From a virus: 63,439 nt of DNA. The translations under genes were made by a program, and so were the position numbers. Below are positions 2,867 to 60,740 of the stretch, one piece after another. How positions within the stretch are numbered: the first letter of the stretch is position 1; each line of letters begins with the position of its first letter. The stretch is taken from positions 1 through 63,439 of IMG/VR virus record IMGVR_UViG_3300044825_001916; one strand, given 5' to 3'. The notes beneath the pieces were generated by a model, which made no database searches, was not told the origin of the DNA, and saw nothing but the letters and a program-made list of their open reading frames with translations.

Positions 2867-3781
2867 CTACACCCCAGGTGTGCCAAAGACGGTGCGCGGG
2901 TCGGTCCAGCCGAACGCGTAACGCTCGGTGGCCTTGTAGCGCATGCTGTCGGTCTCGAAGTCGCCTTCCATGCTCTTCTCGAGCGAGCGGCGCATCAGCA
3001 GCTTCAGGCCTTCCGGCGCGTCCGTCTGCACCCACCAAGCGGTGGTGGAGGTCAGACGCGACAGGTTGGCCTGGCCGCCGGACAGCAGCCCCATGGAGTT
3101 CACGGGGTTGATGTCGTTGAAGTTCGTGCCGGCACGCAGCACGCTCTTCAGCAGCACTTCCGCCTGGAAGACGTTCGACGGCGACACCACCAGCTTCGTC
3201 GGCTGAAGCCGGATGCGCTTGCCGTTGTTGTCGACGGCGTTGCGGATCTGGACCAGCAGCTGCTCGAGCGACGTCTGCGAGAGGTTCGCAGCGGTCGTGA
3301 GCTGGTTGCTGAACGTGCCGTTCACGATCGGGTGCGCGTTGGACACCAGCGACACGCCGTCGCCGCCAACGAACGCGCCGTTGAACGCGCGGTTCAGGAT
3401 GTTCGCGCCCAGCGTTTCCTTGGTCTCGATCAGCGACTGAGCAAGGTGGCGGGCATAGGTCTGCCCGATCTTGATGTGGTCGCCGTCTTCGACCAGCACC
3501 TTCGTCAGCGCGAAGGCGAGGCCGTAGACCTTGTAGAGGTAGCGCTGGATGAACAGCACACCGCCCGACTGGTAGGTGACCGGGGTGCCGTCCGGCAGCT
3601 CAGGAGCCGCGCCGAAGCCGTACAGGACCGGCTCTTCATGGTAGTTGCGCGGCGTGCCGCGGCTCTCCTTGAAGACCTGCTTGTACTCATCAGCGCGCTG
3701 CTCGTAGATGCCATCGAACTCTTCCGAGATGATGGGCTCAACGATCGACCGAAACTGGGTCGAGTTCATCGGCATTGCCAT
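2867..3781 (-). CDS. Major capsid protein
   Basis: A 304-residue protein with the size and order expected of a phage capsid gene: portal, co-chaperonin, scaffold, then this. Landmarks are MNSTQFRSIVEPIISEEF at the N-terminus, an ARHLAQSLIETKETLGANIL helix, the FNGAFVGGDGVSLVSNAHP loop and LQPTKLVVSPSNVFQAE. These resemble the HK97-fold capsid proteins annotated as Mu gpT-like or phage major capsid protein. A GAGGAGG ribosome site precedes the ATG, as expected of a very highly expressed gene. The copy at 58662-59576 encodes the same protein, but the last ~20 codons differ at silent sites, marking the edge of the repeat. Confidence 0.85.
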   Translation of the reverse strand: MAMPMNSTQFRSIVEPIISEEFDGIYEQRADEYKQVFKESRGTPRNYHEEPVLYGFGAAPELPDGTPVTYQSGGVLFIQRYLYKVYGLAFALTKVLVEDGDHIKIGQTYARHLAQSLIETKETLGANILNRAFNGAFVGGDGVSLVSNAHPIVNGTFSNQLTTAANLSQTSLEQLLVQIRNAVDNNGKRIRLQPTKLVVSPSNVFQAEVLLKSVLRAGTNFNDINPVNSMGLLSGGQANLSRLTSTTAWWVQTDAPEGLKLLMRRSLEKSMEGDFETDSMRYKATERYAFGWTDPRTVFGTPGV

Positions 3782-3795
3782 GGCTCAGGCCCTCC

Positions 3796-4350
3796 TCAGA
3801 ACGGGTTCACGGCAGCCGCGAACTGGTGCTTCGCGATCTTGGCCTGAACGATGGTGAAAGCGTCACCGGGCACGTTGTTGATGTCGGTGGCGATGTTGAG
3901 GACCGCGAGCTGCCCCGCCGTGCTGGCGGAGGTCGTCGCGTTCATCGTCGCTGTGGACATGCCGAGCCCGTTGCTCGCGGTGATGTTCGTGAAGTCGGCC
4001 TGCTGGCCGATTTCCGAAATCGTCACCGGGCCGTCCGCCTGGATCTCGTAGACGATCTCCGGGTCAGACGTGAAGTACGCGACGATGTCGGTCGCGACGG
4101 TGTTCGCGGGCCACACGTTCGAGACCACGCGACGGCCAGTGACCGGCGTGTACTCGCAGCCCTGGAACGAACCCACGAAGGCGTCGCCGATGGCGGCGGC
4201 CTGGAGGGTGCCGTCGGTGCCGATCTTCACAGGCTGGCCCGTGAAGATGTTCGCAGCATAAGCGGAGGCGATAGTGCCGGCCTCCTGACGGATCACCCCC
4301 GAGGGGTGCTTCGCCGGGCGGAGCCCGAACGGTGCGTTAACCGAAGACAT
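3796..4350 (-). CDS. Capsid-associated structural protein (decoration candidate)
   Basis: A 184-residue product, MSSVNAPFGLRPAKHPSG at the start, with no signal peptide or membrane segment. It is rich in Ala, Thr and Val with alternating beta-type pattern (TGQPVKIGTDGTLQAAAIGDAFVG, DGPVTISEIGQQADF). Similar proteins lie immediately upstream of capsid genes in many podoviruses and are thought to be head structural or decoration proteins. It is 14 bases upstream of the capsid gene, which suggests coordinated, high-level expression. A second identical copy lies at 59591-60145. Confidence 0.65.
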   Translation of the reverse strand: MSSVNAPFGLRPAKHPSGVIRQEAGTIASAYAANIFTGQPVKIGTDGTLQAAAIGDAFVGSFQGCEYTPVTGRRVVSNVWPANTVATDIVAYFTSDPEIVYEIQADGPVTISEIGQQADFTNITASNGLGMSTATMNATTSASTAGQLAVLNIATDINNVPGDAFTIVQAKIAKHQFAAAVNPF

Positions 4351-4394
4351 CCTATGTCTCTTTCACGCAAGGGGTTGGGGAACCCCACGCTTCT

Positions 4395-4940
4395 CTAGGT
4401 GAAGATGGGCGTGGGAACGTGGCGCCGCATGTCCGCCGTACCATCGCCTTCCATCACGTTCGACCCCATCGCGCGCGCCTGCTCGCGGATCAGGTCGGCC
4501 GTCTCGGCCAGCTTGCCCTCTTCCTCCATTGGCATCTTGTGATGCGCCTCGGCCATGTACCGCTGGTACAGGGACGTGGGCAGCTTGAATGCCAGCATCT
4601 CGTTGACACCGATGAAGCCCTGATATTCGCCCGTCTTCAGAGTGGCATAATCCCAGCCGGGCACGTCCTTCGGGGTGATCGGCTCATATCCGAGACGGAT
4701 GCGAGCCTGGATGGTGTCGCGAGGGTTGGTGGTTGTGAGCCAGCAAACGTGATAGCCGGGGATCTCCGGCAGATCGGGCAGCGCAGACTGCCAGAACGAC
4801 TGGCGGAACATGGACACGCGGTCGTTGTCCGACAGCTCTCGGTCCTGCGTCACAGCGCGATCCTGCATCGCGCGGTCAGACTTGTCCGAGCCCATGCTCT
4901 TCTTCAGGCGTTCGTCGATCGAGTTGGTCATGTCACTCAC
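4395..4940 (-). CDS. Virion-region protein of unknown function
   Basis: A 181-residue product with a charged N-terminus (SIDERLKKSMGSDKSDRAMQ) followed by a compact domain with GYHVCWLTTTNPRDTIQARI and EPITPKDVPGWDY. I recall proteins of this pattern between scaffold and capsid genes in many phages, without a known role. A strong AGGAGTGAG ribosome site precedes the ATG. The gene lies five bases after the scaffold candidate, so it is probably a head-assembly component. Confidence 0.6.
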   Translation of the reverse strand: MSDMTNSIDERLKKSMGSDKSDRAMQDRAVTQDRELSDNDRVSMFRQSFWQSALPDLPEIPGYHVCWLTTTNPRDTIQARIRLGYEPITPKDVPGWDYATLKTGEYQGFIGVNEMLAFKLPTSLYQRYMAEAHHKMPMEEEGKLAETADLIREQARAMGSNVMEGDGTADMRRHVPTPIFT

Positions 4941-4945
4941 TCCTA

Positions 4946-5854
4946 TCAGCGAGTTGCGTTTCGTTCAGCGTCGGCCATGCGCGCAAGAACTCGCTTGCGC
5001 TTCACGGGGTCATCCCACACGCCAGCCTCGACCATGGCCTGCTTGGCCTCGGGGCTGACGTAGACTTCCCTCTTTGTAGACGACGAAGCATGTTCCCGGC
5101 CACCACCAATTGGCGGGCCGCGACGGGTTGCCGGCCCAGGCTTCTGAGGCGCACCGGCACGGGACGGCAGCCGCTTCTCGACGCGGCGCTGCAGCTCGTC
5201 CCAATATTCAGCCGTGGTCGGATCCCAGCCTTCAGCCGCCAAGCGATTGTCGATCGCGTTGACGATCGCGCTGTCCTCGTCCTTGGCGTCGGGATCGTAC
5301 CAGGGGTTATCTTCCATCCACTCCTGGGCGTGGGTCTTCAGGCGCGGGTCCACGCGCTCCGGCGGGGCGTCGGCGCGCTGGAAGCGGGTCTTCACCGCCG
5401 ACAGCTCGCGGGCCTCGTTGAGCGCCTCGTCCCGGGCCCGGAGGGCCTGGGCGGTGCGGGTGCCGTCGCCGGCCTGCACTGCCTCGGCCAGGACGCGCTC
5501 GGCGTGCTGGGCGCGCAGCTGGGCGGTGGAGAGGCGCTCGTCGACCGCGCGCAGATCCTGCTGGACCGTGCGGCCCTCAAGGGACTGCAGGCGGCGCTCA
5601 AGTTCCTCGTTGCGGCGGCGGAGGACGTCCAGCTCCGCCAGCGTCATCTCTTTGCCCTTGCGGCGGCGCTCGCGGGCCCGGCGGCGCTCCTCACGCCGTG
5701 CCGCACGGACCTCTTCGGAGCCGCCCTCCTCCTGACCGTCCTCGCCTTCGGACCCAGCGGAGAGGCGCTCGTCGCGCTCGTCGCCCTGATCGGGCGGCGT
5801 CTCAACGACGACGATGTCGTCGTCGTCCTTCTCGGTGATCTTCTCGGTACTCAT
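4946..5854 (-). CDS. Probable head scaffolding protein
   Basis: A 302-residue, very charged protein. Residues 1-50 are dominated by Asp/Glu (KDDDDIVVVE, GSEGEDGQEEGGSEE). Residues about 50-140 are a long Arg/Glu coiled coil (RREERRRARERRRKGKE, LRRRNEELERRLQSLE). The C-terminal part is Pro/Arg-rich and ends in a short helical domain (SPEAKQAMVEAGVWDDPVKR). Length, charge, coiled coil and position between portal and capsid fit a scaffold; there is no conserved catalytic motif. AAAGGAG precedes the ATG. Confidence 0.7.
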   Translation of the reverse strand: MSTEKITEKDDDDIVVVETPPDQGDERDERLSAGSEGEDGQEEGGSEEVRAARREERRRARERRRKGKEMTLAELDVLRRRNEELERRLQSLEGRTVQQDLRAVDERLSTAQLRAQHAERVLAEAVQAGDGTRTAQALRARDEALNEARELSAVKTRFQRADAPPERVDPRLKTHAQEWMEDNPWYDPDAKDEDSAIVNAIDNRLAAEGWDPTTAEYWDELQRRVEKRLPSRAGAPQKPGPATRRGPPIGGGREHASSSTKREVYVSPEAKQAMVEAGVWDDPVKRKRVLARMADAERNATR

Positions 5855-5877
5855 GCTCGGCTCCTTTCAGCCAAACG

Positions 5878-6306
5878 TCAGATGAAAGCCTTGATGGCCA
5901 GCGGGTCGCCGGTCACCTTTCCGATCACGTCGAGGTCGTTGAAGATCACGAACATCGCCGGCTCGTCGCGGTTCTCAGTGGGCACTTCCCACCGATCGCC
6001 GCCGTACTTGGGCACGCGCACGAAGTCGCCAGGGCCGCACCATGCGCCCTCTTTCCACTCCTGCATGGTGTCGCGGTTGCGGAAGGCGAGCGGTCCCATG
6101 GCGACAACCTTCGCCACCTGGGTGTTCCACTTCTCCGTGTCCTTGGTCTCGGACGTCAGGATGATGCCGCCCGCGCTCTTCATCTTCGGGGTTCGGATCT
6201 GCACCAGGATCCGCGATCCTGCTGGTTCCACGCCCGGATCCGCGGCCGGAAATGCCTGCCGCAGGCGCTCAGTAGACTGGTTTTCCGACGTGACGCTCGA
6301 TGCCAC
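5878..6306 (-). CDS. GroES-like co-chaperonin (Cpn10)
   Basis: Predicted partner of the host GroEL ring for folding the capsid protein, in the manner of T4 gp31. The core shows the Cpn10 order: SRILVQIRTPKMKSAGGIIL (beta strand and start of the mobile-loop region), WNTQVAKVVAMGP, then WCGPGDFVRVPKYGGDRWEV and FVIFNDLDVIGKVTG at the end. At 142 residues it is longer than bacterial GroES (~95), with an N-terminal extension and an insertion after VVAMGPLAF. The GTG at 6306 is chosen because GAGGAG lies seven bases upstream; an ATG at 6348 is possible but deep inside the upstream gene. It lies between portal and scaffold. Confidence 0.75.
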   Translation of the reverse strand: MASSVTSENQSTERLRQAFPAADPGVEPAGSRILVQIRTPKMKSAGGIILTSETKDTEKWNTQVAKVVAMGPLAFRNRDTMQEWKEGAWCGPGDFVRVPKYGGDRWEVPTENRDEPAMFVIFNDLDVIGKVTGDPLAIKAFI

Positions 6307-6493
6307 CGTCCATCTCCTCAAGACGATCTCCGATTGCCATTTCGACAACCTCGATCGCGCGTTGCAGACCGGCGTACATGCCGGTCACCCTCCCGTACTC
6401 GAACGCATCGCGTCCTGCCGGGCTGCTCATGGCCTGATGAGCGATCTCGTTGAGTTCGCGCTTCAGGGCGGACAATATCCGCACTTCTGACAT
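6269..6493 (-). CDS. Small helical protein upstream of the co-chaperonin gene
   Basis: A 74-residue, mostly alpha-helical product (MSEVRILSALKRELNEIAHQ...GLQRAIEVVEMAIGDRLEEM). No motif recognised. Its 3' end overlaps the co-chaperonin start by about 40 bases, suggesting translational coupling. It could be a minor head-assembly protein. Confidence 0.6.
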   Translation of the reverse strand: MSEVRILSALKRELNEIAHQAMSSPAGRDAFEYGRVTGMYAGLQRAIEVVEMAIGDRLEEMDGGIERHVGKPVY

Positions 6494-6532
6494 TATGGTG
6501 CCGCCAAGCAGGACGCAAGCATCGCTCTGGGA

Positions 6533-6685
6533 TTACTTCGCGGGAGCCTTGCCGCCGCCGGAGGATTTGCCGTTGGTCGAGCGGATTGGCGCCTTCGGCA
6601 TGTTGGTCTTGTTGCCCGTCATGGGGTTGTTGCCCATGGCGAGGTTCTTGCGCAGCGGGATCAGGTTGGCGTTCGGGGTCTTCAT
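6533..6685 (-). CDS. Very small Lys/Asn-rich protein after portal
   Basis: A 50-residue open frame starting MKTPNANLIPLRKNLAMG and ending GGGKAPAK. It lies 11 bases after the portal stop, with GGAG just upstream of its ATG, and has a basic, low-complexity composition like the other small basic proteins of this phage. Intact in both copies of the repeat (see 62328-62480). Confidence 0.6.
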   Translation of the reverse strand: MKTPNANLIPLRKNLAMGNNPMTGNKTNMPKAPIRSTNGKSSGGGKAPAK

Positions 6686-6696
6686 GGCACTCTCCT

Positions 6697-9276
6697 TCAC
6701 GGGGACGGGTTGATGCCGGTGCCCGTCGAGAGGCCCGAGCGATTGCCGGCGAGGATCTCGGCGCTGGAGATGCGCAGAGCGGTGTCGTTGTCCTGGGTGT
6801 TGATAGCCTGGCGCGCAGCCAGCTCGGCCATCTTGCGCTTGTCCTCCGCAGCCTGGCGCTCGGCCTGGAGCTGGATGTCGACGTTCGCGCGCATCTGCTC
6901 GACGGCGATGTCGGTCTGCTGCTCCATGGCGCGCTCCTGCATCTTGATCTGGTCAAGCTGCGCGTCGCGCTGGCTTTCGGCCTGCTGGATGGCCAGCTTC
7001 TGCTGGTCGAGCTGAGCGCGCTGGGCGTCGGCCTGGGCGCGCTGCTGCAGGGCCTGCATCTGAACCTGCCCGGGGTCGGTCGGCTTCGGCTGCATGGACT
7101 GCACGTACTGGATCGCCTGCTGCAGGATGGGCGGCAGCTGAGCCAGGGCCTGACCGCCGGCCGCGACGACGTCGTCCGACGCCACCGCCAGGAGCCGGTC
7201 GAAGTTCTGGTTTACCTCGGGATCCTTCGGATCCATGAGCTGCGCGATGTCCATGCCCGCAGCCTCGCTCGTCAGGCTGAACACGGCGTTCACGTACCAG
7301 AGCGCGATGTGGTCGCGCAGGTGCGTGATCATGGACGGCACGAAGGTCGGCGAGATGGCCGGGTTCTGGCCGAACACGGGGCTCATCAGGAAGTCCAGGT
7401 GGACCTTGATGTGGGCCGCGTGATCCTGGTCGGGGAAGGCGACGATCGGGCGCGACATGGTCGCGGCGACGTTCTCGTTCACCGGGTTCATGCGCTCGGG
7501 CTCCGGCTTCGGCAGCAGGAGGCGCTTCGCCGCGTCCGGGATCTTGCTCTGCTCGAGGATCATCTCCTCGACCTTGCGCAGGTCGTACAGCTGCGGCATC
7601 GCCGCGGCCCGCTGCGCGATGAGCGCGACCTGGGCGTGGCGCTGCACGTCGGAGAAGATGTTCGGGTCGGAGACCGGGACGACGTCAAGCGGGCCCTCGA
7701 AATCGGAGCGCCGGACCATGATCTCGCCGGTGTCGTCGTAGACCTCGCTCTCCTCAAGGTAGGTGCAGTTGATCCGGTGCAGGATCCGCAGCGCCCGGCC
7801 CATCGCGGCGTGCAGGCGCGCGTGGATGGAGGAGAAGACGGTCATGCCCTGCTCGATGAGCGCGAGCGTGGTGCCGACCGGCTGGTTCTGGTTCACTTCG
7901 CCCAGCTTGTCGAAGCTGGTGCGGACGACGTTCTTGCCTGCGTCCACCATGAAGCCCAGCAGCTGGAACAGCACCGGGCTCGGCTGGTTGTACGGCAGAG
8001 GCATGATGGCCTTGCGGATGTCGTCGACGTTCAGCGGCGCCTCGATCTCGTTGATCGAAGCCGGGTCGATCGACATCGACTGGCCGCCCTTGCCGGCGGA
8101 GCGCATCCGCAGGAGGGTCTGCGAGTTGCTGATGTGGGCGCTGTCGAGCAGGGCGCGGAGGGCGCCGGTGGACGCGCCCGAGAGGCCGCCGATCATGTGC
8201 GGAAGGCCAATCGGGTACGCGCCGCGCCAGGGGATGAAGGGCCACTCAACGAACCAGTGCAGCTCCTCGCGGCGCTCGTCCTCGGGATCCCAGTTGCGGT
8301 AGATCGAGAGGACCGCGCGCGTGTGCTTGTCGATCGTCACGACGTAGGGGGACGGAGGCTCGTCCTCGTCCTCGTTCTCGATCTCGGCGTGGCAGTAGAT
8401 CTCGAAGATCGTGCGCAGGCCGTCGTCGTTGTAGGCGTCCTGGTCGCGGCCCTCGATCTTGTCGTTGGCCTTGGCCGGACCCGTCTGGTCGATCTGGGTC
8501 TCCGGCATCAGGTCGACGTCGCGGTACATTCCCGAGCGGACGCGTCGGCTATACTCCAGCTCCGTCAGGTACTGGACGTGCGTCCGGCGCTCAGCCGTCT
8601 CGAACGAGGTGGCGGCGAACGGCAGGTACATATCGTCGATCGGCACGAACATGGCGCGCGGGCGCTTCAGGCGCGCGTCCCAGTACAGCTTCAGGTACTG
8701 GGCGCCGCCGAGCGGAACCTGCGTGATGGTCTGCTCCAGCTCGGGCCGGAACTCCGTCATCTGCTCGGTCAGCTGCCAGTTCATGTAGCGCTTCTTGCGC
8801 TCAGCCTTGTCGAGCTTCTTCTGCGTGACCTCGCCCGGGATCTTGGTCTTCACCGGGCCGTCGGGCGGCAGCAGCTCCTTCAGCGCGCGGGCGGCGAAGT
8901 CGACGGCTGCCTCGGTCAGGAGCGGGTGGACAACACGGGACGCGCCCTCGAACTGGGCACCGCCAGGCGCATCGTCACCGAGCCCGGTGCGGCGCAGGCC
9001 TTCCTCATACTGCTCGTCGCGCTTCTTGCGCGCTTCTTTGTCGCGGGTGACTTTGTCGTACAGCTCGGTCGCGACCGTCGACAGCACGCTGTCGGGCAGC
9101 GCCTCCGCCAGGTTGGCGAAGTGGTCGGGGTTGTCCTCGACCTGATCTTCGTCATCGAGGCGCACGATCGCGCCGCCGTCGTCGGTGTCCTCGACGCTGT
9201 CGTCGACGTCGAGCGGCATGAGCTGCCCGTCGCCGTTGTCGTCATCGTCGGGGAGGTCGAGGTCGTCGGGCGTCAT
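6697..9276 (-). CDS. Portal protein
   Basis: An 859-residue protein, the expected size for a podovirus-type portal. The N-terminus is acidic and disordered (DDLDLPDDDDNGDG). The core shows portal features: RRTGLGDDAPGGAQFEGASR, PLLTEAAVDFAARALKELLP, PWRGAYPIGLPHMIGG, SMSIDPASINEIEAPLNVDD and LGEVNQNQPVGTTLALIEQG. The C-terminal ~200 residues are a Gln/Ala-rich helical barrel (QAESQRDAQLDQIKMQERAM), as in the long barrels of P22-like portals. It forms the twelvefold DNA channel at one capsid vertex. A C-terminal partial copy lies at 62492-63439. Confidence 0.85.
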   Translation of the reverse strand: MTPDDLDLPDDDDNGDGQLMPLDVDDSVEDTDDGGAIVRLDDEDQVEDNPDHFANLAEALPDSVLSTVATELYDKVTRDKEARKKRDEQYEEGLRRTGLGDDAPGGAQFEGASRVVHPLLTEAAVDFAARALKELLPPDGPVKTKIPGEVTQKKLDKAERKKRYMNWQLTEQMTEFRPELEQTITQVPLGGAQYLKLYWDARLKRPRAMFVPIDDMYLPFAATSFETAERRTHVQYLTELEYSRRVRSGMYRDVDLMPETQIDQTGPAKANDKIEGRDQDAYNDDGLRTIFEIYCHAEIENEDEDEPPSPYVVTIDKHTRAVLSIYRNWDPEDERREELHWFVEWPFIPWRGAYPIGLPHMIGGLSGASTGALRALLDSAHISNSQTLLRMRSAGKGGQSMSIDPASINEIEAPLNVDDIRKAIMPLPYNQPSPVLFQLLGFMVDAGKNVVRTSFDKLGEVNQNQPVGTTLALIEQGMTVFSSIHARLHAAMGRALRILHRINCTYLEESEVYDDTGEIMVRRSDFEGPLDVVPVSDPNIFSDVQRHAQVALIAQRAAAMPQLYDLRKVEEMILEQSKIPDAAKRLLLPKPEPERMNPVNENVAATMSRPIVAFPDQDHAAHIKVHLDFLMSPVFGQNPAISPTFVPSMITHLRDHIALWYVNAVFSLTSEAAGMDIAQLMDPKDPEVNQNFDRLLAVASDDVVAAGGQALAQLPPILQQAIQYVQSMQPKPTDPGQVQMQALQQRAQADAQRAQLDQQKLAIQQAESQRDAQLDQIKMQERAMEQQTDIAVEQMRANVDIQLQAERQAAEDKRKMAELAARQAINTQDNDTALRISSAEILAGNRSGLSTGTGINPSP

Positions 9277-13926: not shown

Positions 13927-16503
13927 TCATGCCGCATAGGGGTTGGCCCGCCTCCTGCTAGGCTGCCAGTATTCGTCGATTTCGCGCGGGTTGGCAACCG
14001 AAACCCCCATCTTGTCCACGATCACCCGCAGCGCCTGGGTCGAGCTGTCGACGAGGTCGTCGTGGGCGATGCTCTTCTCGCCGGAGAAGCTGCAGAGCTG
14101 CTCAATGAGGGGATCGGCCCAGGATCGGGGCTGGCCGGGGCGCTTGTCGCTCTCGACGACCCAGACCATGCCGTTGGCGAAGAGGTGGCTGACCATGTGC
14201 AGGCGCTCGAGCTTGCTGGCGCGGCCGGGGTTGTAGGCCACCGCCTGGAGGCCTTCGCGGGCGAGCATCTGGCGCAGGCTGATGCCGCTGCCCTTGTCCT
14301 CGATCACGCACAGGTCGGGCTTCCGGCCCGAGGTGCCGAGCAGGGGCGCGCCGTAGATCGGGGCGATCAGGGGCTTGTCGCGGTCGCCGTACTGCACCGC
14401 CATCTCGCGCTTCGTGCGGTCGATCAGGTCGGGCATGCCGAGGCGTTCCTGCCAGCAGTCGAGCAGGAGGACGCCGTCCTGGCGGTCTTCGCGGAAGAGG
14501 CCCCAGACGCTGCACCCGGTGTAGTCGGCGTCGCCGGTCTTTGAGTTGCGCGTGGCCTCGGTGAAGGCGGTGTCGAGCGAGAGCACGATCAGGTCGAAGA
14601 CCGGCAGCGGCTTGTCGGCCGGCCAGAGCTGGATCCAGGAGCGCTTGATGATGCCCTGATCGGCCGGGTCGAGCACCTCGGCGTGGATCTCCTGCCGGCC
14701 GAGGGCGGTGCCCTCGTACTGCAGGATCTGCTCGCGGAAGGTGGGCGCCAGGTTGGCGAGGTTGGCGTAGGTCGAGGCGCGGGAGACGGTGACGTCCTTG
14801 CCTTCGCGCTTCAGCAGCCGGGTGATGATGGGCTTCGGCTTGGGCGTGGTGGAGATCACGATGCGCGGCCGATCGCCCAGGCGCATGCCAAACATGAGCA
14901 TGTCGAAGGCTTCCTCGGCCCGCTGCCAGGCCGCCAGCTCGTCGAGCCATCCGCCGTGGAACTGAGGGCCGCGGAAGCGCTCGGGGTTCTCGGCGGAGAT
15001 GCCCTTGATGAGGCTGCCGTTCTTGAGGCGCAGCTCGACGTCGGTCTTGTTGTACAGGGCGCCGCTGGAGGTGGGCTCGATCAGCTCGTGCGGGATGACG
15101 GCGAGCAGGCCGCTCTCGCCCTCGAAGCAGGTGCCGACAAGGTCGCCGTAGGTCGGTGCGGAGACGAGCCACCGGGTGCCGGGCATGGACCACGCCCACC
15201 AGCCGATGGTCTCGGCGGAGGTGCGGGTGTTGTGGGTCGGGATCATCGCCCGGCCGCAGAGGTAGAGGCGAGACGGGCTGTCGACCGTGACGCAGCGCAC
15301 GGGCACGCTGGGTACGGGCTCGACGGCGACGATGTATCGACGGCGCTGGCGGTCGGCCTGGCTGCCGTCTCCGGCCTTGATGCGGGCGAGCTTGCGGGGC
15401 AGGCGGAAGACGGGCGCGTAGGGCGTGAAGTTGACGCGGTACTTCGGACCGCAGTCGCGACCGCTTAGGGTCGCGCGGGCTTCGCGCAGCGTCGCCTTCA
15501 TGCCGAGGCCCGACACGAGGTCGAAGACGGCGTCAGCGATCGGGCGCTTGGTCGTGCAGAACTCGGCGATGCCGCGGTCGGAGACGTAGCCGTCGGTGTC
15601 CATGAGCCCCTGCAGTAGGGCAAGGCGCTGTTCGGCGGAGGCGCGCAGGTACGAGGCGGGAACGTGCTTGTTGCGCAGAACGCCCAGCTTACTCAGCCGG
15701 TGGGTAAGCGACGCCGGGTTCGGTTGGCAGCCGCTCTTGCCGGGCACCCACAACGCTTTCGCGGGGGAGATGGCGTAAGTGCGGGATGCGTTTCCGGTCT
15801 CGCGCGACTTTCCGATCGTCTCGCCGCAGCGTTTGATCTCCTCAAGCACCTCGGGGTCGGCGGTGGTGATTTCGCCGCAGGCGGAGCTGCCGTCGCCCAG
15901 CCAGGCCCCCAGGACGTAGGGGTGAATGGGCAGTTGCTGTTCTGGAAGCTCCAAGGGGAGGCAGACGCGCACCGCGTGATTGATCTCGCGCCCGTCCATG
16001 AGCGACGCGCGGATCTCGTCGGTGGTGAACGTGTTGCGATGGGAGGCGGGCTGGCACTGCGGCTTTCGCGGGTCGCCGGTGCCCGCGCAGCGGCCGGCGG
16101 CTTTGCGCGCCTTGCGCGTCTCGGTGCGCCACAGGTGCTCACCGTCGGCTATGATCTCAGATCCGTCGCTGAAGGTGACGCGGTAACACGGCCGATCGAC
16201 CATGACCGGGTGCGCCTCGATGACGCGGCAGGGGCGGCCTTGCTCGTCGAACAGGGTATCTCCGGCCTTGACCTCGCCCATGGTAGTCCAGCCGCCCAGC
16301 GTTGGCAGGGGGGTGTCGAGCGCGAGCGCCTTGCCGGCGCCGCGGCCTGCGAGGAGCAGCCAGAGCGACCACCAGTCGCCGGCGGGGACGAGCTGGTGGT
16401 CGAGGGCCTTGTCCATCCACTCGGCGTGCCAGAGGAGGCCTCGGGCGACGTCGTCGGGGAGCTTGGCGATGAGTTCGATTTCGGCGGGCGTCAGCGCGCT
16501 CAT
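13927..16503 (-). CDS. terL: Terminase large subunit interrupted by an intein
   Basis: DNA-packaging ATPase and nuclease. The 858-residue precursor contains an intein at residues 59-425; the spliced terminase would be about 491 residues, a normal size. Walker A is GRGAGK at 53-58, split from TRTSAE by the intein. A Walker B-like GGWLDELA follows, then nuclease motifs of the RNase H-like domain: VLSLDTAFTEA, LCVIEDKGSG and DDLVDSSTQALR. The ATG overlaps the end of the upstream XF1762-like gene by four bases. Without splicing the ATPase should be inactive, so the intein must be functional or the phage defective. Confidence 0.92.
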   Translation of the reverse strand: MSALTPAEIELIAKLPDDVARGLLWHAEWMDKALDHQLVPAGDWWSLWLLLAGRGAGKALALDTPLPTLGGWTTMGEVKAGDTLFDEQGRPCRVIEAHPVMVDRPCYRVTFSDGSEIIADGEHLWRTETRKARKAAGRCAGTGDPRKPQCQPASHRNTFTTDEIRASLMDGREINHAVRVCLPLELPEQQLPIHPYVLGAWLGDGSSACGEITTADPEVLEEIKRCGETIGKSRETGNASRTYAISPAKALWVPGKSGCQPNPASLTHRLSKLGVLRNKHVPASYLRASAEQRLALLQGLMDTDGYVSDRGIAEFCTTKRPIADAVFDLVSGLGMKATLREARATLSGRDCGPKYRVNFTPYAPVFRLPRKLARIKAGDGSQADRQRRRYIVAVEPVPSVPVRCVTVDSPSRLYLCGRAMIPTHNTRTSAETIGWWAWSMPGTRWLVSAPTYGDLVGTCFEGESGLLAVIPHELIEPTSSGALYNKTDVELRLKNGSLIKGISAENPERFRGPQFHGGWLDELAAWQRAEEAFDMLMFGMRLGDRPRIVISTTPKPKPIITRLLKREGKDVTVSRASTYANLANLAPTFREQILQYEGTALGRQEIHAEVLDPADQGIIKRSWIQLWPADKPLPVFDLIVLSLDTAFTEATRNSKTGDADYTGCSVWGLFREDRQDGVLLLDCWQERLGMPDLIDRTKREMAVQYGDRDKPLIAPIYGAPLLGTSGRKPDLCVIEDKGSGISLRQMLAREGLQAVAYNPGRASKLERLHMVSHLFANGMVWVVESDKRPGQPRSWADPLIEQLCSFSGEKSIAHDDLVDSSTQALRVIVDKMGVSVANPREIDEYWQPSRRRANPYAA
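15229..16329 (-). mobile_element. Ala1-type intein with LAGLIDADG-like homing domain in TerL
   Basis: 367 residues inserted in the P-loop between GAGK and TRT. The N-terminal splicing block starts ALALDTPLPTLGGWTTMGEV with Ala as first residue, which places it with inteins that skip the usual Cys/Ser1 acyl shift. Block B is DGEHLWRT, and the C-terminal end is GRAMIPTHN with the terminal His-Asn pair, followed by extein Thr. Between them are two LAGLIDADG-like segments, PYVLGAWLGDGSS and LLQGLMDTDGYVS, with Asp residues at the expected places, so the homing nuclease looks intact. Confidence 0.9.
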
Positions 16504-19526: not shown

Positions 19527-19705
19527 GCGATCGGGTTATGGGCCCCGTGCGGGACGCCTTCGCATACGCCCACCCCGGCGAGGTGCAGCTCGTGCTGCAT
19601 GGCGTCGAGAGCAAGGACGACCGCGTCGCGAGGCTGACGCCGATGCAGGCGCTGCGGCTGGCCGAGACGCTGACGCGGTCGGCTCGGGAGGCGCTGACGT
19701 CATGA
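19523..19705 (+). CDS. Hypothetical 60-residue early protein
   Basis: Starts MSDRVMGPVRDAFAYAHPGE. Overlaps its neighbours by four bases on each side (ATGA junctions). The helical C-terminus (MQALRLAETLTRSAREALTS) has no recognised motif. Confidence 0.55.
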   Translation: MSDRVMGPVRDAFAYAHPGEVQLVLHGVESKDDRVARLTPMQALRLAETLTRSAREALTS

Positions 19706-19953
19706 CCGACATCGTGGAACGGTTGCGGGCTTACGCTGTGGAGTGGCGCGACGAAATGCAGCCAGCAATCGGCGAACCGCTGGACGAAGCCGCTGCCGAG
19801 ATCGAGCGGCTGCGGGCCGAGATCCACCGGCTGCGGGGAGTTCTTGAGGAGATTGAGACCCCGCCGATCGACGTTGTCTGTCACGGGTCGTGGGAGGCTT
19901 TTGAGTGGGCGATAGAGCGAGCTGCCGACGCGCTCAAGGCGCCGACGCCATGA
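19702..19953 (+). CDS. DIVERLR-family coiled-coil protein (member 1)
   Basis: An 83-residue product with the family start MTDIVERLR and the second signature AAAEIERLRAEIHRLR, forming a short Leu/Arg coiled coil. The C-terminal half (PPIDVVCHGSWEAFEWAIER) is unique to this member. Proteins with this MTDIVERLR...EIERLR pattern occur in many phages of Alphaproteobacteria as far as I recall; none has a function known to me. Five related genes lie at 22518-24244. Confidence 0.7.
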   Translation: MTDIVERLRAYAVEWRDEMQPAIGEPLDEAAAEIERLRAEIHRLRGVLEEIETPPIDVVCHGSWEAFEWAIERAADALKAPTP

Positions 19954-22364: not shown

Positions 22365-22521
22365 GACGAAGGTGTGGCTGGCGATCTGCGCTGCGGTGGG
22401 GACGATCGTGCTCTGCGGTGCGGGGCTCATCCTCAATTATAACACCCACCAGGCCGCGCTGCGCCAGGCCGCGTGCGTGAACCCGGAGAGCGTCGCTTGT
22501 ATCATGGCGGTGCGCCAGTGA
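22354..22521 (+). CDS. Single-pass membrane protein
   Basis: A 55-residue product, MSDETKVWLAICAAVGTIVL, with one N-terminal transmembrane segment and a short soluble tail holding two Cys (ACVNPESVACIM). GGGAGGAAG lies upstream of the ATG inside the previous gene. Confidence 0.6.
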   Translation: MSDETKVWLAICAAVGTIVLCGAGLILNYNTHQAALRQAACVNPESVACIMAVRQ

Positions 22522-22937
22522 GCGATATCGTCGACGAGCTGCGGCTGATGCGGGACGGGGCTCAGTGGGCGTGCGGCGCGACGGCGGCGACCCTGAGCCA
22601 GGCGGCGGATGAGATCGAGTGGTTGCGGGGCGAGCGTGATCGCCTGGCGGCGGATCTCGCGAAGGCCCACAAGGACATCCTACCGTGGATCGAGCGGGCC
22701 CAGCATGCGCTCTCGGCGTCGCCGGCGAAGCCGCATGCGGCCGGCAACATCCCTGAGACGCTGCGCGTCCTGATGGGCGCGATCGAGATCAGGCGCCAGT
22801 TCATCAAGCAGGCGTATGACGACAGCCAGGAGTACTGGCAGTGCCAGCGCGAGCTGGCGAACCTGGAGCGGCGCTGGGACGAGGCCGAGGCGCTGTGGGC
22901 GAAGCACGTCTCGAGGGAGAAGGCCGGTGTCGGATGA
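22518..22937 (+). CDS. DIVERLR-family coiled-coil protein (member 2)
   Basis: A 139-residue product from a GTG start that overlaps the previous stop. It opens SDIVDELRLMRDG and has the second signature AADEIEWLRGERDRLAADL. The remainder is a longer helical region (GAIEIRRQFIKQAYDD; ANLERRWDEAEALWAKH). It is the longest-diverged member of the family. Confidence 0.65.
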   Translation: MSDIVDELRLMRDGAQWACGATAATLSQAADEIEWLRGERDRLAADLAKAHKDILPWIERAQHALSASPAKPHAAGNIPETLRVLMGAIEIRRQFIKQAYDDSQEYWQCQRELANLERRWDEAEALWAKHVSREKAGVG

Positions 22938-23343
22938 GGTTCTCGCGCAGGCTCGGCGCCTGCACATGCACGTCATGAACGGCGGCAACGTCACGGCGAT
23001 CGACATGTCGCGCCTGGTGCAGGGCATGGAGCGGCTGCAGGCTGAACGTGTTCACATTATCGACCTCGCCCACCTAGCCATCGAGTACGCCCGCAAGCAG
23101 GCCTATGCCGACGCAAGGGGCCACATCGAGTTCGCTGCCGAGTGCGCGCCTTTCGTTGAGCGGTTCAAGAAGGCCGCCCGCGCTGCTCTTGGGGAGCTCA
23201 ACTCAATCAGCGACAACCCGCCGCCTTGCCCCAACCCAGAGCAAGCTTGCCGCCAGTATCAAGCGACGCCCGGCGTTTGGGTTTGCAGCAATTTCGGATG
23301 CGCGCGAATGCCGAAGCAATTGAAGGAACAAACCCATGAATGA
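22927..23343 (+). CDS. DIVERLR-related protein with Cys4 tail (member 3)
   Basis: 138 residues from a GTG start. The N-terminus differs from other members, but GMERLQAERVHIIDLAHLAI, RGHIEFAAECAPFVERF and ARAALGE match member 6. After ARAALGE comes the Cys4 module NSISDNPPPCPNPEQACRQY...VWVCSNFGCARMPKQLKEQ, with spacing C-x6-C-x11-C-x4-C, which could bind a metal. The module is nearly identical in member 5, also at DNA level. Confidence 0.7.
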   Translation: MSDEVLAQARRLHMHVMNGGNVTAIDMSRLVQGMERLQAERVHIIDLAHLAIEYARKQAYADARGHIEFAAECAPFVERFKKAARAALGELNSISDNPPPCPNPEQACRQYQATPGVWVCSNFGCARMPKQLKEQTHE

Positions 23344-23356
23344 CATCGTGGAGCGT
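23200..23356 (+). repeat. 157-bp direct repeat, copy 1 (Cys4-tail module)
   Basis: Repeated at 23836-23992, 636 bp on, with about seven substitutions by eye. It spans the Cys4 tail of one gene plus the start codon and first codons of the next, so the unit is tail plus next start rather than a whole gene. Confidence 0.85.
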
Positions 23357-23545
23357 CTGCGCTTAGATGCAGAACCTACTGAAAGCGACATGGAAGAAGC
23401 AGCTACCGAGATCGAGCGGCTTCGGGTCGAGCGGGCCCGGCTGCGGTTGGCGCTGCGGATCATCGCTGGTTACGAGCAGTGCCTTGATAACTTGATGAGC
23501 AATGGTGATCTCGCCCGCGCAGCACTCGGGGAGGACCAGACATGA
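23336..23545 (+). CDS. DIVERLR-family coiled-coil protein (member 4)
   Basis: 69 residues, starting MNDIVERLRLDAEPTESDME with the second signature EAATEIERLRVERARLRLAL. It ends ARAALGEDQT, without the Cys4 tail. Overlaps member 3 by eight bases and member 5 by four. Confidence 0.7.
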   Translation: MNDIVERLRLDAEPTESDMEEAATEIERLRVERARLRLALRIIAGYEQCLDNLMSNGDLARAALGEDQT

Positions 23546-23979
23546 CCGACATTGTGGAGCGGCTGCGGGTCGGAATTCACATCAGCGTTGACGAAAACAT
23601 GCTGCGAAATGAAGCCGCCGACGAGATCGAGCGGCTACAGACCGAGCGCGACCTGCTGCAAATCAATATCGTCCTACTTGAAGCAACCGGCGCCGACGCC
23701 TCTGACGAGATCGATCGGCTGCGGAGGGCGCTGCGCGCTTTAGCCGATATCGACGGTAGTCCAGCTAATGTGGCGAACGCTGAAGTGTTGGCCTCAAGGG
23801 TCCGCAACTGCGCCCGTGCCGCACTCGGGGAGGCCAACTCAATCAGCGATAACCCGCCGCCTTGTCCCAACCCAGAGCAAGCTTGCCGCCAGTATCAAGC
23901 GATGCCCGGCATTTGGGTTTGCAGCAATTTCGGATGCGCGCGAATGCCGAAGCAACTGAAGGAACAAACCCGTGAATGA
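23542..23979 (+). CDS. DIVERLR-family protein with Cys4 tail (member 5)
   Basis: 145 residues. Starts MTDIVERLRVGIHISVDENM, with two EI(E/D)RL signatures (AADEIERLQTERDLLQ and SDEIDRLRRALRAL), then ARAALGE and the Cys4 module found in member 3 (CPNPEQACRQYQAMPGIW, VCSNFGCARMPKQLKEQ). The two heads share only the general coiled-coil pattern, so the tail appears to have been transferred as a unit. Confidence 0.7.
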   Translation: MTDIVERLRVGIHISVDENMLRNEAADEIERLQTERDLLQINIVLLEATGADASDEIDRLRRALRALADIDGSPANVANAEVLASRVRNCARAALGEANSISDNPPPCPNPEQACRQYQAMPGIWVCSNFGCARMPKQLKEQTRE

Positions 23980-23992
23980 CATCGTGGAGCGG
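23836..23992 (+). repeat. 157-bp direct repeat, copy 2 (Cys4-tail module)
   Basis: Second copy of the unit at 23200-23356. One of the differences changes the start codon of the following gene from ATG to GTG. Most others fall at third codon positions, which suggests the tail has been kept under selection since it was copied. Confidence 0.85.
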
Positions 23993-24244
23993 CTGCGGGC
24001 CGAGGGCGCGCTGGCCGGGCATTACGACGCGCCGGCCATCCAGCGCGAGGCGGCCGACGAGATTGAGCGGCTGAGGGCAGAGCGCGACAGGCTTATCCAC
24101 CTTGCCCACATAGCCATCGAGTACGCCTACAAACAGGGCCATGCAGAAGCAAAGGGCCACATCGAAGTTGCTGCCGAGTGCGCGCCTCTCGTTGAGCAGT
24201 TCAAGAAAACTGCCCGCGCTGCGCTCGGGGAAAACCAGACATGA
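23972..24244 (+). CDS. DIVERLR-family coiled-coil protein (member 6)
   Basis: 90 residues from a GTG start. NDIVERLRAEGALAGHYDAP, then AADEIERLRAERDRLIHLAH, then the central module shared with member 3 (IAIEYAYKQGHAEAKGHIE, VAAECAPLVEQFKKTARAAL) and a short GENQT end. It therefore combines the head of members 4/5 with the body of member 3. Confidence 0.7.
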   Translation: MNDIVERLRAEGALAGHYDAPAIQREAADEIERLRAERDRLIHLAHIAIEYAYKQGHAEAKGHIEVAAECAPLVEQFKKTARAALGENQT

Positions 24245-24450
24245 TTACTAACACCTGCGTTTGTGCCAGTGTCATTTGCGCCAAGAACGGATGCCAGAAG
24301 TATCCATCCTATTCGATACTGAAAATGGGGTTTGCGGAGCCCGCTCCGATGCAGGTCGGTTGCATCTGCCCACCGGGTGCTAACCGCGAGTGCGAGAACC
24401 CGGCTTGCCCACGCAAGAATTGGCACGCAGCAAAGGATGACCGTGCATGA
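24241..24450 (+). CDS. Cysteine-rich small protein
   Basis: A 69-residue product with nine cysteines (NTCVCASVICAKNGCQKY; GCICPPGANRECENPACPRK). Spacing suggests one or two metal-binding knuckles. It follows the Cys4-tailed family directly (ATGA overlap) and ends in a basic KNWHAAKDDRA segment. No family recognised. Confidence 0.6.
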   Translation: MITNTCVCASVICAKNGCQKYPSYSILKMGFAEPAPMQVGCICPPGANRECENPACPRKNWHAAKDDRA

Positions 24451-24833
24451 CCGACGCATGGGACGGGCGCCCGCAGAACCCGGAGCGTGATGGGTGGCAT
24501 TGGCTGGCAAGTTCCGAGGGGCCGGTACCTGCGCTCTGGGCACGTCCTGCATGGCGCCATTGTCGCGACTTCTGGATATCGCAGGCGGAACCGGAATGGA
24601 TGGTGCGTCAAGGCTGGCGCTACCTCGGCCCCTGCCTGATGCCTGCTGAAGTCGAGGCCGAGCGCGACCGGCTGCGGTCTAGCGCCTTTCCTGCTGCTGC
24701 TGCGGCAGTGCGGCGGATGGCTGCCCGGATGCGCGCGATGGACCCGGTGCGGATCGAGGTGCTGGCGACCGTCGCGGCACTAGAGCAGGCCGCCGACATG
24801 CTGGAGGCGAAGGGCCAGGAGGATCGACCGTGA
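24447..24833 (+). CDS. Hypothetical Trp-rich early protein
   Basis: 128 residues. The N-terminal ~65 residues are rich in Trp and Pro (DAWDGRPQNPERDGWHWLAS; WRHCRDFWISQAEPEWMV; GWRYLGPC), resembling small early phage proteins of the DUF551-like type. The rest is helical (AEVEAERDRLRSSAF). Assignment is weak. Confidence 0.5.
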   Translation: MTDAWDGRPQNPERDGWHWLASSEGPVPALWARPAWRHCRDFWISQAEPEWMVRQGWRYLGPCLMPAEVEAERDRLRSSAFPAAAAAVRRMAARMRAMDPVRIEVLATVAALEQAADMLEAKGQEDRP

Positions 24834-25072
24834 GCGAAGACAACGTGGTGATCTTGCCGGTGATCACCACCATTCCGATTCCCGTGGAGCGCATCCTCTC
24901 GCAAGCCGCGAAGGCTGACCTGAAGCTGTGCATCATCATCGGCGAGAAGGAAGACGGTTCGCTCTACTTCGGAAGCAGCGAGCCCGATGGAGGAGATGTT
25001 CTGTGGCAGCTGGAGAAGGCGAAGATGGCGCTCATGCGGATCGGCGGCGCGTGGCCGGAAGATCCCACATGA
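24830..25072 (+). CDS. Hypothetical 80-residue protein (GTG start)
   Basis: Starts at a GTG overlapping the previous stop (SEDNVVILPVITTIPIPVER). A small alpha/beta product ending QLEKAKMALMRIGGAWPEDP. No family recognised. Confidence 0.55.
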   Translation: MSEDNVVILPVITTIPIPVERILSQAAKADLKLCIIIGEKEDGSLYFGSSEPDGGDVLWQLEKAKMALMRIGGAWPEDPT

Positions 25073-25536
25073 CGGCGGAAGAGTGGGCTGATGCCATCTA
25101 TGAGGCCACCGGGTGGACGGTGGGAGCCAACTTGGCGCAGGCCATTGGCGGCATGATCGAGGCGCAGGCGCATCTGGCGCGGCAGGAGAGGAAGGCGATG
25201 CTCAACAAGGAAGTGACGACGGATTTTGCGGACGGGTTCCGCTCCGGCTTTGAGGCGGCACGCGTGCAGCTCGAGGCGGCGGTGACGAAGGCCCTCGGGG
25301 AGTACAAGTCCGTCCTGAAGGCGATGCGTGCGGTGCAGTTGCCTGAGCCGGCGGAGGAGAAGCGAGAGCTGGACGAGCTGCGCGCGGCGCTGCTTGATTG
25401 TTCTGACGACCTGGCGGCCGAGATCGAGGCGCGCTACGCCGGGACGCAGGATCTGTATCCGAGCGAGAAGCAGCGCTTCGATCGGGACATGGCGTCGGTC
25501 ACGACGGCGCGCGAGCTGCTGGCGAGGGGGGCCTAG
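25069..25536 (+). CDS. Hypothetical helical early protein, end of the first rightward block
   Basis: 155 residues, mostly alpha-helical and charged (MTAEEWADAIYEATGWTVGA; DGFRSGFEAARVQLEAAVTK; AEEKRELDELRAALLDCSDD). No motif recognised. Its stop overlaps by four bases the stop of the leftward gene 25533-25733, so the two blocks meet tail to tail without a spacer. Confidence 0.55.
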   Translation: MTAEEWADAIYEATGWTVGANLAQAIGGMIEAQAHLARQERKAMLNKEVTTDFADGFRSGFEAARVQLEAAVTKALGEYKSVLKAMRAVQLPEPAEEKRELDELRAALLDCSDDLAAEIEARYAGTQDLYPSEKQRFDRDMASVTTARELLARGA

Positions 25537-30026: not shown

Positions 30027-30794
30027 ATGGCCATCAGCCTCAACTCGCTGCGCCGCACCGGCGTGGCCCGGCCGCCGCGCATCGTGCTCTACGGCACGGC
30101 CGGCATCGGCAAGACCACCTTCGCGGCGGCCGCGGAGGCCGCCGTCTTCATCCCGACCGAAGAGGGTCTGGACGCGATCCAGGCGGACGCGTTCCCGCTC
30201 TGCAAGACCTTCGAGGACGTGATCGACTGCCTCACCTCGCTGATCGTCGAGGACCACAAGTTCCGCACGGTGGTGCTCGACAGCGCCGACTGGACGGAGC
30301 GGCTGATCCACGGGCGCGTCGCGGCCGACAACAACGTCGCGACGATTGATGCGATCGGCTACGGCAAGGGCTACAAGGCGGCGGTCGACTATTGGCGGCA
30401 GATCCTCGACGGGCTCGACGTGCTGCGCAACGACAAGGGCATGCAGGTGATCCTGCTGGCCCACTCGCAGATCAAGCGCTTCGACGACCCGCTGTCCGAT
30501 CCTTACGACCGCTACCAGCTCGACCTGCACTCGGCGGTGGCGAGCGTGGTCACCGAGTGGTGCGACGCGCTGCTGTTCGCGAACCAGCGCTACAGCACGG
30601 TGAAGTCGGAAGTCGGCTTCAACCAGAAGGTCACGCGGGCGGTCGGGAATGGCGACCGCGTGATCTACACGCAGGAACGGCCGGGCTGGCACGCGAAGTC
30701 CCGCTGGCCGCTGCCTGACACCATGCCCCTCGACTACTCGAAGTTCTCCGCGTCCCTGATGGACGCGATGACGAACATCCAGTCTGAAGCCTGA
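30027..30794 (+). CDS. RecA-like (Sak4-type) recombination ATPase
   Basis: 255 residues. Walker A is VLYGTAGIGKTTFAAAA near residue 20; Walker B-like FRTVVLDSADW follows, then MQVILLAHSQIKRFDDP, as in phage AAA_24/Sak4 ATPases. These promote single-strand annealing with an ssDNA-binding protein, and the DUF669 gene next door fits that pairing. Confidence 0.8.
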   Translation: MAISLNSLRRTGVARPPRIVLYGTAGIGKTTFAAAAEAAVFIPTEEGLDAIQADAFPLCKTFEDVIDCLTSLIVEDHKFRTVVLDSADWTERLIHGRVAADNNVATIDAIGYGKGYKAAVDYWRQILDGLDVLRNDKGMQVILLAHSQIKRFDDPLSDPYDRYQLDLHSAVASVVTEWCDALLFANQRYSTVKSEVGFNQKVTRAVGNGDRVIYTQERPGWHAKSRWPLPDTMPLDYSKFSASLMDAMTNIQSEA

Positions 30795-58661: not shown

Positions 58662-59576
58662 TCAGACGCCCGGAGTACCGAACACCGTGCGCGGGTCGGT
58701 CCAACCGAACGCGTAACGCTCGGTGGCCTTGTAGCGCATGCTGTCGGTCTCGAAGTCGCCTTCCATGCTCTTCTCAAGCGAGCGGCGCATCAGCAGCTTC
58801 AGGCCTTCCGGCGCGTCCGTCTGCACCCACCAGGCGGTGGTGGAGGTCAGACGCGACAGGTTGGCCTGGCCGCCGGACAGCAGCCCCATGGAGTTCACGG
58901 GGTTGATGTCGTTGAAGTTCGTGCCGGCACGCAGCACGCTCTTCAGCAGCACTTCCGCCTGGAAGACGTTCGACGGCGACACCACCAGCTTCGTCGGCTG
59001 AAGCCGGATGCGCTTGCCGTTGTTGTCGACGGCGTTGCGGATCTGGACCAGCAGCTGCTCGAGCGACGTCTGCGAGAGGTTCGCAGCGGTCGTGAGCTGG
59101 TTGCTGAACGTGCCGTTCACGATCGGGTGCGCGTTGGACACCAGCGACACGCCGTCGCCGCCAACGAACGCGCCGTTGAACGCGCGGTTCAGGATGTTCG
59201 CGCCCAGCGTTTCCTTGGTCTCGATCAGCGACTGAGCAAGGTGGCGGGCATAGGTCTGCCCGATCTTGATGTGGTCGCCGTCTTCGACCAGCACCTTCGT
59301 CAGCGCGAAGGCGAGGCCGTAGACCTTGTAGAGGTAGCGCTGGATGAACAGCACACCGCCCGACTGGTAGGTGACCGGGGTGCCGTCCGGCAGCTCAGGA
59401 GCCGCGCCGAAGCCGTACAGGACCGGCTCTTCATGGTAGTTGCGCGGCGTGCCGCGGCTCTCCTTGAAGACCTGCTTGTACTCATCAGCGCGCTGCTCGT
59501 AGATGCCATCGAACTCTTCCGAGATGATGGGCTCAACGATCGACCGAAACTGGGTCGAGTTCATCGGCATTGCCAT
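58662..59576 (-). CDS. Major capsid protein (second copy)
   Basis: Same 304-residue protein as 2867-3781. Differences are silent and confined to the 3' end of the gene. In the genome it is presumably one gene, seen twice because the window wraps around. Confidence 0.85.
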   Translation of the reverse strand: MAMPMNSTQFRSIVEPIISEEFDGIYEQRADEYKQVFKESRGTPRNYHEEPVLYGFGAAPELPDGTPVTYQSGGVLFIQRYLYKVYGLAFALTKVLVEDGDHIKIGQTYARHLAQSLIETKETLGANILNRAFNGAFVGGDGVSLVSNAHPIVNGTFSNQLTTAANLSQTSLEQLLVQIRNAVDNNGKRIRLQPTKLVVSPSNVFQAEVLLKSVLRAGTNFNDINPVNSMGLLSGGQANLSRLTSTTAWWVQTDAPEGLKLLMRRSLEKSMEGDFETDSMRYKATERYAFGWTDPRTVFGTPGV

Positions 59577-59590
59577 GGCTCAGGCCCTCC

Positions 59591-60145
59591 TCAGAACGGG
59601 TTCACGGCAGCCGCGAACTGGTGCTTCGCGATCTTGGCCTGAACGATGGTGAAAGCGTCACCGGGCACGTTGTTGATGTCGGTGGCGATGTTGAGGACCG
59701 CGAGCTGCCCCGCCGTGCTGGCGGAGGTCGTCGCGTTCATCGTCGCTGTGGACATGCCGAGCCCGTTGCTCGCGGTGATGTTCGTGAAGTCGGCCTGCTG
59801 GCCGATTTCCGAAATCGTCACCGGGCCGTCCGCCTGGATCTCGTAGACGATCTCCGGGTCAGACGTGAAGTACGCGACGATGTCGGTCGCGACGGTGTTC
59901 GCGGGCCACACGTTCGAGACCACGCGACGGCCAGTGACCGGCGTGTACTCGCAGCCCTGGAACGAACCCACGAAGGCGTCGCCGATGGCGGCGGCCTGGA
60001 GGGTGCCGTCGGTGCCGATCTTCACAGGCTGGCCCGTGAAGATGTTCGCAGCATAAGCGGAGGCGATAGTGCCGGCCTCCTGACGGATCACCCCCGAGGG
60101 GTGCTTCGCCGGGCGGAGCCCGAACGGTGCGTTAACCGAAGACAT
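59591..60145 (-). CDS. Capsid-associated structural protein (second copy)
   Basis: Identical in sequence to 3796-4350; see there. Confidence 0.65.
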   Translation of the reverse strand: MSSVNAPFGLRPAKHPSGVIRQEAGTIASAYAANIFTGQPVKIGTDGTLQAAAIGDAFVGSFQGCEYTPVTGRRVVSNVWPANTVATDIVAYFTSDPEIVYEIQADGPVTISEIGQQADFTNITASNGLGMSTATMNATTSASTAGQLAVLNIATDINNVPGDAFTIVQAKIAKHQFAAAVNPF

Positions 60146-60735: not shown

Positions 60736-60740
60736 TCCTA

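Follow-up and report, generated by a model that had tools for sequence, protein, structure and literature searches.

Small phage genes of a variable array exchange linkers and bodies at a conserved coiled-coil core

The Ea22 protein of phage lambda consists of a short N-terminal part, a long coiled coil, and a C-terminal domain that varies between phages; the full-length protein is a tetramer, is made early, and favors lysogeny, and ea22 genes occupy an early, nonessential position between the recombination genes and int (PMC10834534). Protein mosaicism is known in phages, recent domain shuffling has been tied to the arms race, and mosaicism in accessory proteins and in proteins of unknown function is expected beyond that reported (Smug et al. 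2023, PMC10684548). Here we describe an array of small genes in the IMG/VR virus record IMGVR_UViG_3300044825_001916, whose 63,439 nucleotides (nt) were analyzed as a whole and are referred to as the window. The genes belong to a modular family with a constant head and core; judged from sequence comparisons, linkers and bodies have been exchanged by recombination within the core DNA or at its edges, and the array gains and loses genes. Compared with the Ead_Ea22 proteins, (i) the family matches their tripartite layout in its motifs and in the secondary structure predicted by AlphaFold2 (AF2), (ii) there is no profile match, so that the resemblance is one of layout and not of membership, (iii) the exchange point of the family lies in a short conserved core, at 15-45 residues from the start of the protein, and its genes form tandem arrays, and (iv) Ea22 is a tetramer, whereas the models made here for the family are monomer predictions.

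An earlier note on this DNA, made from the letters alone, had described six genes, at 19702 and at 22518-24244, as built from interchangeable parts. A check of the open reading frames (ORFs) found all six where they had been placed, and they are named m1 to m6 in the following.

19702..19953, plus strand: m1, ORF with a DIVERLR head, linker, core, and body EIETPPIDVVCHGSWEAFEW...
22518..22937, plus strand: m2, ORF with a GTG start, the head variant SDIVDELR, and core AADEIEWLRGERDRLA
22927..23343, plus strand: m3, ORF with a GTG start, a second head type (SDEVLAQARRL...), the LAHLAIEYA body, the ARAALGE joint, and a Cys4 tail
23336..23545, plus strand: m4, ORF with head LDAEPTESDMEEAATEIERLR, body RIIAGYEQCLDNLMSNGD, and ARAALGE
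23542..23979, plus strand: m5, ORF with head, double coil, ARAALGE joint, and Cys4 tail
23972..24244, plus strand: m6, ORF with a GTG start, head ALAGHYDAPAIQREAADEIERLR, the LAHIAIEYA body, and ARAALGE

Each gene from m2 to m6 shares 4 to 11 nt with the gene after it. The wider family was searched for in IMG/VR contigs (handles L007 and so on), using m5, m6, and a degenerate DNA pattern for MTDIVERL as queries, and members were extracted from more than 100 contigs with a profile of head and core, which gave at least 170 unique ORFs. Members consist of an M(T/S/N)DIVERLR head (MTDIVERLR), a linker of about 5-45 residues that is variable between genes, an EAADEIERLR core (EAADEIERLRAE), and a body that is likewise variable, often with an ARAALGE end (an ARAAL-like end was seen in 43 of 157 members among the matches listed). 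Tandem groups of 2-4 members occurred at least 34 times in the contigs examined, which were picked for holding a member. In the window, the EIERLR core is present in m1, m2, m4, m5 (twice), and m6.

19786..19815, plus strand: exchange core (EAAAEIERLR) of m1, repeat family
22599..22628, plus strand: exchange core of m2, in a repeat family with the m1 core
23396..23425, plus strand: exchange core of m4, in a repeat family with the m1 core
23611..23640, plus strand: exchange core of m5, in a repeat family with the m1 core
24047..24076, plus strand: exchange core of m6, in a repeat family with the m1 core

To locate the points at which parts change partners, genes from different contigs were compared codon by codon, without gaps, outward from the core, and a half was regarded as shared at 70% nt identity or more. 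At least 25 pairs had at least one such half: 15 shared the linker only, 4 the body only, and 6 both. In the 15 linker-sharing pairs the linkers were 70-100% identical and the bodies 23-44%, and in the 4 body-sharing pairs the bodies were 81-90% identical and the linkers differed in length; the background identity is 0.35 for linkers and 0.29 ± 0.06 for bodies. Identity ran 6-11 codons beyond the core start in 14 of the 15 linker-sharing pairs and 18 codons in the remaining one, and it reached 1-2 codons upstream of the core in the 4 body-sharing pairs. The switch fell within -2 to +11 codons of the core start in 18 of the 19 pairs sharing one half, these being pairs of sequences rather than independent events, several of which reuse L017, L018, L097, L110, L111, or L059.

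All core-bearing members of the window (m1, m2, m4, m5, and m6) have at least one part that stands beside another partner elsewhere. The m1 body is found in L123 (81% nt) with a different linker, and the segment KAHKDILPWIE that follows the core of m2 is joined to other linkers in L033 and L142. The linkers of m4 and m5 are 97% and 88% identical at the nt level, respectively, to L119, in both cases with another body, and the m4 body recurs in L058/L021. The m6 head is present in L018, L043, L017, and L097; it is 89% identical at the nt level to that of L018/L043, where other bodies follow. Mapping of module combinations across the collected homologues, as the earlier note had suggested, thus revealed the same linkers and bodies with other partners. 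The notion of interchangeable parts holds for these modules and for the repeats described below. One correction is that the head of m3 differs from the others (SDEVLAQARRLHMHVMNGG...); it is also found in the sister contigs L028 and L029 on other bodies.

Variation in gene number is seen in sister phages. L017/L043 and L018 share with the window the genes to the left of the array (a1, b1-b3, and b5-b9; 45-92% amino acid [aa] identity) and carry a single DIVERLR gene at the position of m2 to m8. In L018 and L043 this mosaic gene has the m6 head (88.6-89.5% nt), followed without a gap by an m5 segment (82-84%); in L018 it has an m8-like end, and the next gene is m10-like with another N terminus. 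Since m5 precedes m6 in the window, the m6/m5 join of the sister phages is not a simple deletion. The suggestion that recombination could add or remove members is thus borne out by phages with one mosaic gene in place of the array. Taken together, the pairs sharing one half and the single mosaic gene of the sister phages show that parts are shuffled and that gene number varies. As in the domain mosaicism described for phages (PMC10684548), fragments are common to otherwise unrelated proteins (19 pairs here), and the exchange is recent and visible at the DNA level, here as halves of 80-100% nt identity and as the gapless m6/m5 join; the present case differs in being a small early family with a defined exchange core. 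What is new is this named core, a family that has not been cataloged, and its tandem arrays, whereas phage protein mosaicism as such was known already.

Parts are also repeated within the array itself.

23175..23361, plus strand: tail repeat copy 1 (joint, Cys4 tail, and start of the next gene), 187 nt
23811..23997, plus strand: tail repeat copy 2, 174/187 nt identical to copy 1 (93%)
23026..23195, plus strand: LAHLAIEYA body repeat copy 1 (m3), pairing with copy 2
24062..24231, plus strand: LAHIAIEYA body repeat copy 2 (m6), 81% identical to copy 1 over about 173 nt, BLAST expectation value (E) 3e-41

The tail repeat begins at the ARAALGE joint, spans the Cys4 tail, and extends into the DIVERLR codons of the next gene. 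The near identity of the m3 and m5 tails at the DNA level and the body common to m3 and m6 were therefore rightly noted before, and the repeat reported as 157 bp over the tail and the next start is present, but longer. Self-matches of the array amount to 279 bits for the tail repeat and 160 bits for the body repeat; the best self-match among 50 codon-shuffled versions of the array region was 31.9 bits, and other 6.6-kb chunks of the window gave at most 41 bits. The sharing of parts among the array genes is far above chance.

Selection on the shared modules was estimated by the Nei-Gojobori method as nonsynonymous (dN) and synonymous (dS) divergence; the segments are short, and single values are rough. 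Within the window, dN and dS were 0.040 and 0.225 for the m3/m5 tail and 0.118 and 0.422 for the m3/m6 body. For bodies compared between contigs, the values were 0.091 and 0.784 (m1/L123) and 0.090 and 0.315 (L125/L119); for the L123/L020 linker, 0.065 and 1.08; for heads, 0.066 and 0.477 (m6/L018), 0.049 and 0.562 (m4/L119), and 0.122 and 0.416 (m5/L119); and for m7/L028, 0.071 and 0.333. The dN/dS ratio of all modules tested was about 0.06-0.29, and on these estimates the shared modules are under purifying selection. Decayed genes free of selection, which the earlier note would have counted against its proposal, were thus not what we found, nor was there a homologue of known, unrelated function that would explain the family.

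The searches indicate that the family is widespread and has no model in Pfam, NCBIfam, or PHROGs. No family model was found in Pfam for 77 + 73 members, the few matches being to differing generic coiled coils, or in NCBIfam for 77 members, and neither Pfam (77 + 73 members) nor NCBIfam (77 members) gave a match to Ead_Ea22 or a relative. Two of 77 members each matched phrog_1816 and phrog_722, both of unknown function, at E 1e-3; this is a weak likeness to the coil and leaves the family outside both. PADLOC gave no match for ten window proteins. In cultured phages, tblastn with m1, m5, and the head consensus gave no match, and two other members gave none beyond chance, which says little because low-complexity filtering probably hides the coil. 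The head gene was not found in Caulobacter phage RW and MW202545, the nearest by terminase (50 kb of each). Of 289 genomes from the class of Martelella limonii, only 3 had a clear match (E < 1e-5), and a literature text search on the head motif retrieved no paper. The contigs L049, L077, L078, L080, L097, and L115, which also hold DIVERLR genes, contain a further recurring head, M(S/T)DIADKIYAATGLTLNAEAAAKIGHMI; its continuations vary, many ending in ALGEKE. Counts of ATGA overlaps were not used as evidence, since they are biased by a search pattern that demanded ATGA. A WxPIETxP resemblance seen by eye in the bodies of L138, L147, and L150 had suggested DUF551, for which Pfam gave no match.

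One body has a recognizable domain. A gene in L034 (4252-4722, plus strand) fuses the DIVERLR head and coil to an R67/DfrB-type dihydrofolate reductase (DHFR) domain at residues 91-144. The C-terminal 54 residues match PF06442 with 62 bits (cutoff, 25), and the domain matches PDB entry 1vie with an E of 2.3e-13, with KKSG and VQIYP kept. The gene lies between SSB-like and integrase-like genes, both named by eye, a place similar to that of ea22 between exo and xis. The R67-type domain is not present in the window, L034 is the sole DIVERLR-headed case among the matches listed, and PF06442 gave nothing above the cutoff in 385 genomes of the class of Martelella limonii. This fusion suggests that bodies can be true functional domains. 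R67-type DHFR acts as a tetramer, and distant homologues are known in phages and alphaproteobacteria (PMC9835603); because of the latter, the DfrB-type body bears on the question of the origin of these enzymes. The same domain, with 82-83% identity, also occurs in L166 (from about 1785) and L167 (from about 1587) behind other N-terminal parts, namely, a different helical one in L166 and one that by eye looks like an HNH endonuclease in L167.

The AF2 model of m5, from a 77-row alignment, had a predicted local distance difference test score (pLDDT) of 80 and a predicted template modeling score of 0.49, with helices at 2-10, 16-71, and 74-94, the last ending at ARAALGE. The model of m3, from 6 rows (pLDDT, 68.5), had helices at 3-17, 24-64, and 67-87. 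Both head types thus have a common predicted plan, in which a short helix is followed by a long coil and then a return helix; this makes assembly by the coiled coil plausible. The four-cysteine element follows this part.

23227..23301, plus strand: Cys4 element of m3, C-x6-C-x11-C-x4-C, Cys 101/108/120/125
23863..23937, plus strand: Cys4 element of m5, C-x6-C-x11-C-x4-C, Cys 108/115/127/132

The spacing is as originally read in m3 and m5. The tail had also been called transferable, which was not upheld, as it is common only to m3 and m5 of this genome: no relative was found in the viral contigs by 8-residue patterns or with full m5, and the spacing pattern with W, N, and G fixed gave 9 matches there, all broken by stop codons. 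Pfam gave no match for m3 and none of a zinc family for m5. With low confidence, the m5 tail was modeled as a helix at 111-118 and strands at 125-128 and 131-134 (pLDDT about 61-65), and the m3 element as a short helix and a beta-hairpin.

The window codes for portal, terminase, primase, RusA-like resolvase, and Sak4-like genes; its structural genes are on the minus strand, and between 18.7 and 25.5 kb the plus strand carries a series of small genes. The following features complete the array and its surroundings.

24241..24450, plus strand: m7, small Cys-rich protein, next array gene; 88% aa to L028 (5001-5210)
24447..24833, plus strand: m8; C-terminal part recurs in L018 behind a DIVERLR head (43 residues at 51% aa, E 7e-7)
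24830-25072: m9; match to phrog_11040 (unknown function), E 3.9e-14
25069..25536, plus strand: m10; C-terminal part recurs in L119 behind an m5-type head (53 aa at 53%, E 4e-16)
30027..30794, plus strand: Sak4-like single-stranded-DNA-annealing protein; phrog_124, E 1.3e-38

The L028 homologue of m7 also sits after a DIVERLR gene, and the C-terminal part of m10 occurs in L018 on another N terminus (70% over 54 aa). The C-terminal motif of m7, CICPPGANRECENPACPRK, is also found in L029 (about 4876-5108) on another N terminus and in a different frame, perhaps through a frameshift. A likeness of the m10 N terminus to "IYAATGLTL" heads was suspected and not confirmed by BLAST. The ORF containing the terminase (13930-16503) is closest to Caulobacter phages RW, RLK, KcrB, and GB2A, with 55% aa identity across half of the protein; this closeness suggests that the host is an alphaproteobacterium. 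Positions 2867-7644 and 58662-63439 repeat about 4.8 kb at 99.5-100% identity (offset, 55795), and the record appears to comprise a circular genome of about 55.8 kb and an alternative 2.9-kb stretch (1-2866) beside the capsid gene.

We consider it fairly probable, at roughly 0.6, that these genes are a variable early-gene array from a modular phage family whose core-exchanged parts yield oligomeric, swappable adaptors or effectors, organized like lambda Ea22. Exchange would proceed by homology-dependent recombination, perhaps through the Sak4-like annealase of the phage, a role in keeping with general knowledge of such proteins, and the conserved core and the gene-start DNA would be the exchange points. 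The constant head and coil would assemble the protein into oligomers, and the variable body, with the Cys4 tail where present, would carry the activity and be displayed to host targets early in infection, so that the array would amount to a swappable set of nonessential adaptors or effectors. Several points weigh against this interpretation. No family member with an experimentally known function was found, and only gene position points to early expression. Because all members are alike in the core, the precise junction cannot be pinpointed within it. The structure models are monomer predictions, that of m3 is weak (pLDDT, 68.5), the Cys4 tail is modeled at about 40-65, and Foldseek against PDB and BFVD gave no significant fold match, the two best BFVD matches being uncharacterized phage proteins with 35-38 aligned columns that were not significant. 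A bolder version, which we regard as tentative and rather unlikely, is that head and core form a universal assembly platform, with 30-40 bp of coding DNA as the recombination joint that loads bodies, including a DfrB-type DHFR that needs a tetramer; array neighbors would then coassemble into mixed oligomers that vary by phage.

The hypervariable array, its fixed place in an early-looking region, and the combination of diversifying recombination with purifying selection within modules would also be expected of specific anti-host or anti-defense inhibitors, with each body directed at one host protein and the array kept because the defenses of hosts differ; the link between recent phage domain shuffling and the arms race (PMC10684548) points the same way. 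There is, however, no likeness to known defense proteins in PADLOC or to curated families, and no target is known; the PADLOC result is weak evidence, as PADLOC omits most anti-defense proteins, and we consider this possibility, which the earlier note had raised, to be doubtful. A role as regulators or zinc-dependent nucleic acid binders, with zinc bound by the Cys4 tail and other Cys clusters and dimerization through the coil, appears improbable: different Cys clusters do occur in L007, L010, L014, L047, and L118, and the tail model of a short helix and a beta-hairpin places the last two Cys on the hairpin, but that model is of low confidence, a Cys cluster is absent from most members, no zinc finger of Pfam matched, and the four-Cys pattern was not found beyond this genome. 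That the array has little or no function, having arisen incidentally as short, low-complexity early ORFs recombined loosely, is very improbable. The genes are indeed small, unannotated, and variable in number, and the coiled coil is of low complexity; yet dN/dS is 0.06-0.29 in every shared module tested, the frames have stayed open through many exchanges, and the codon-level identity of linkers is unlike low-complexity similarity.

Small early phage genes of unknown function make up a large share of viral dark matter. Many such genes fall into one family that follows one rule, a constant head and core with a swappable linker and body and with exchange at the core. This rule provides a handle for annotation, for the discovery of new effector domains among the bodies that are swapped, and for experiments on how phages create new proteins.
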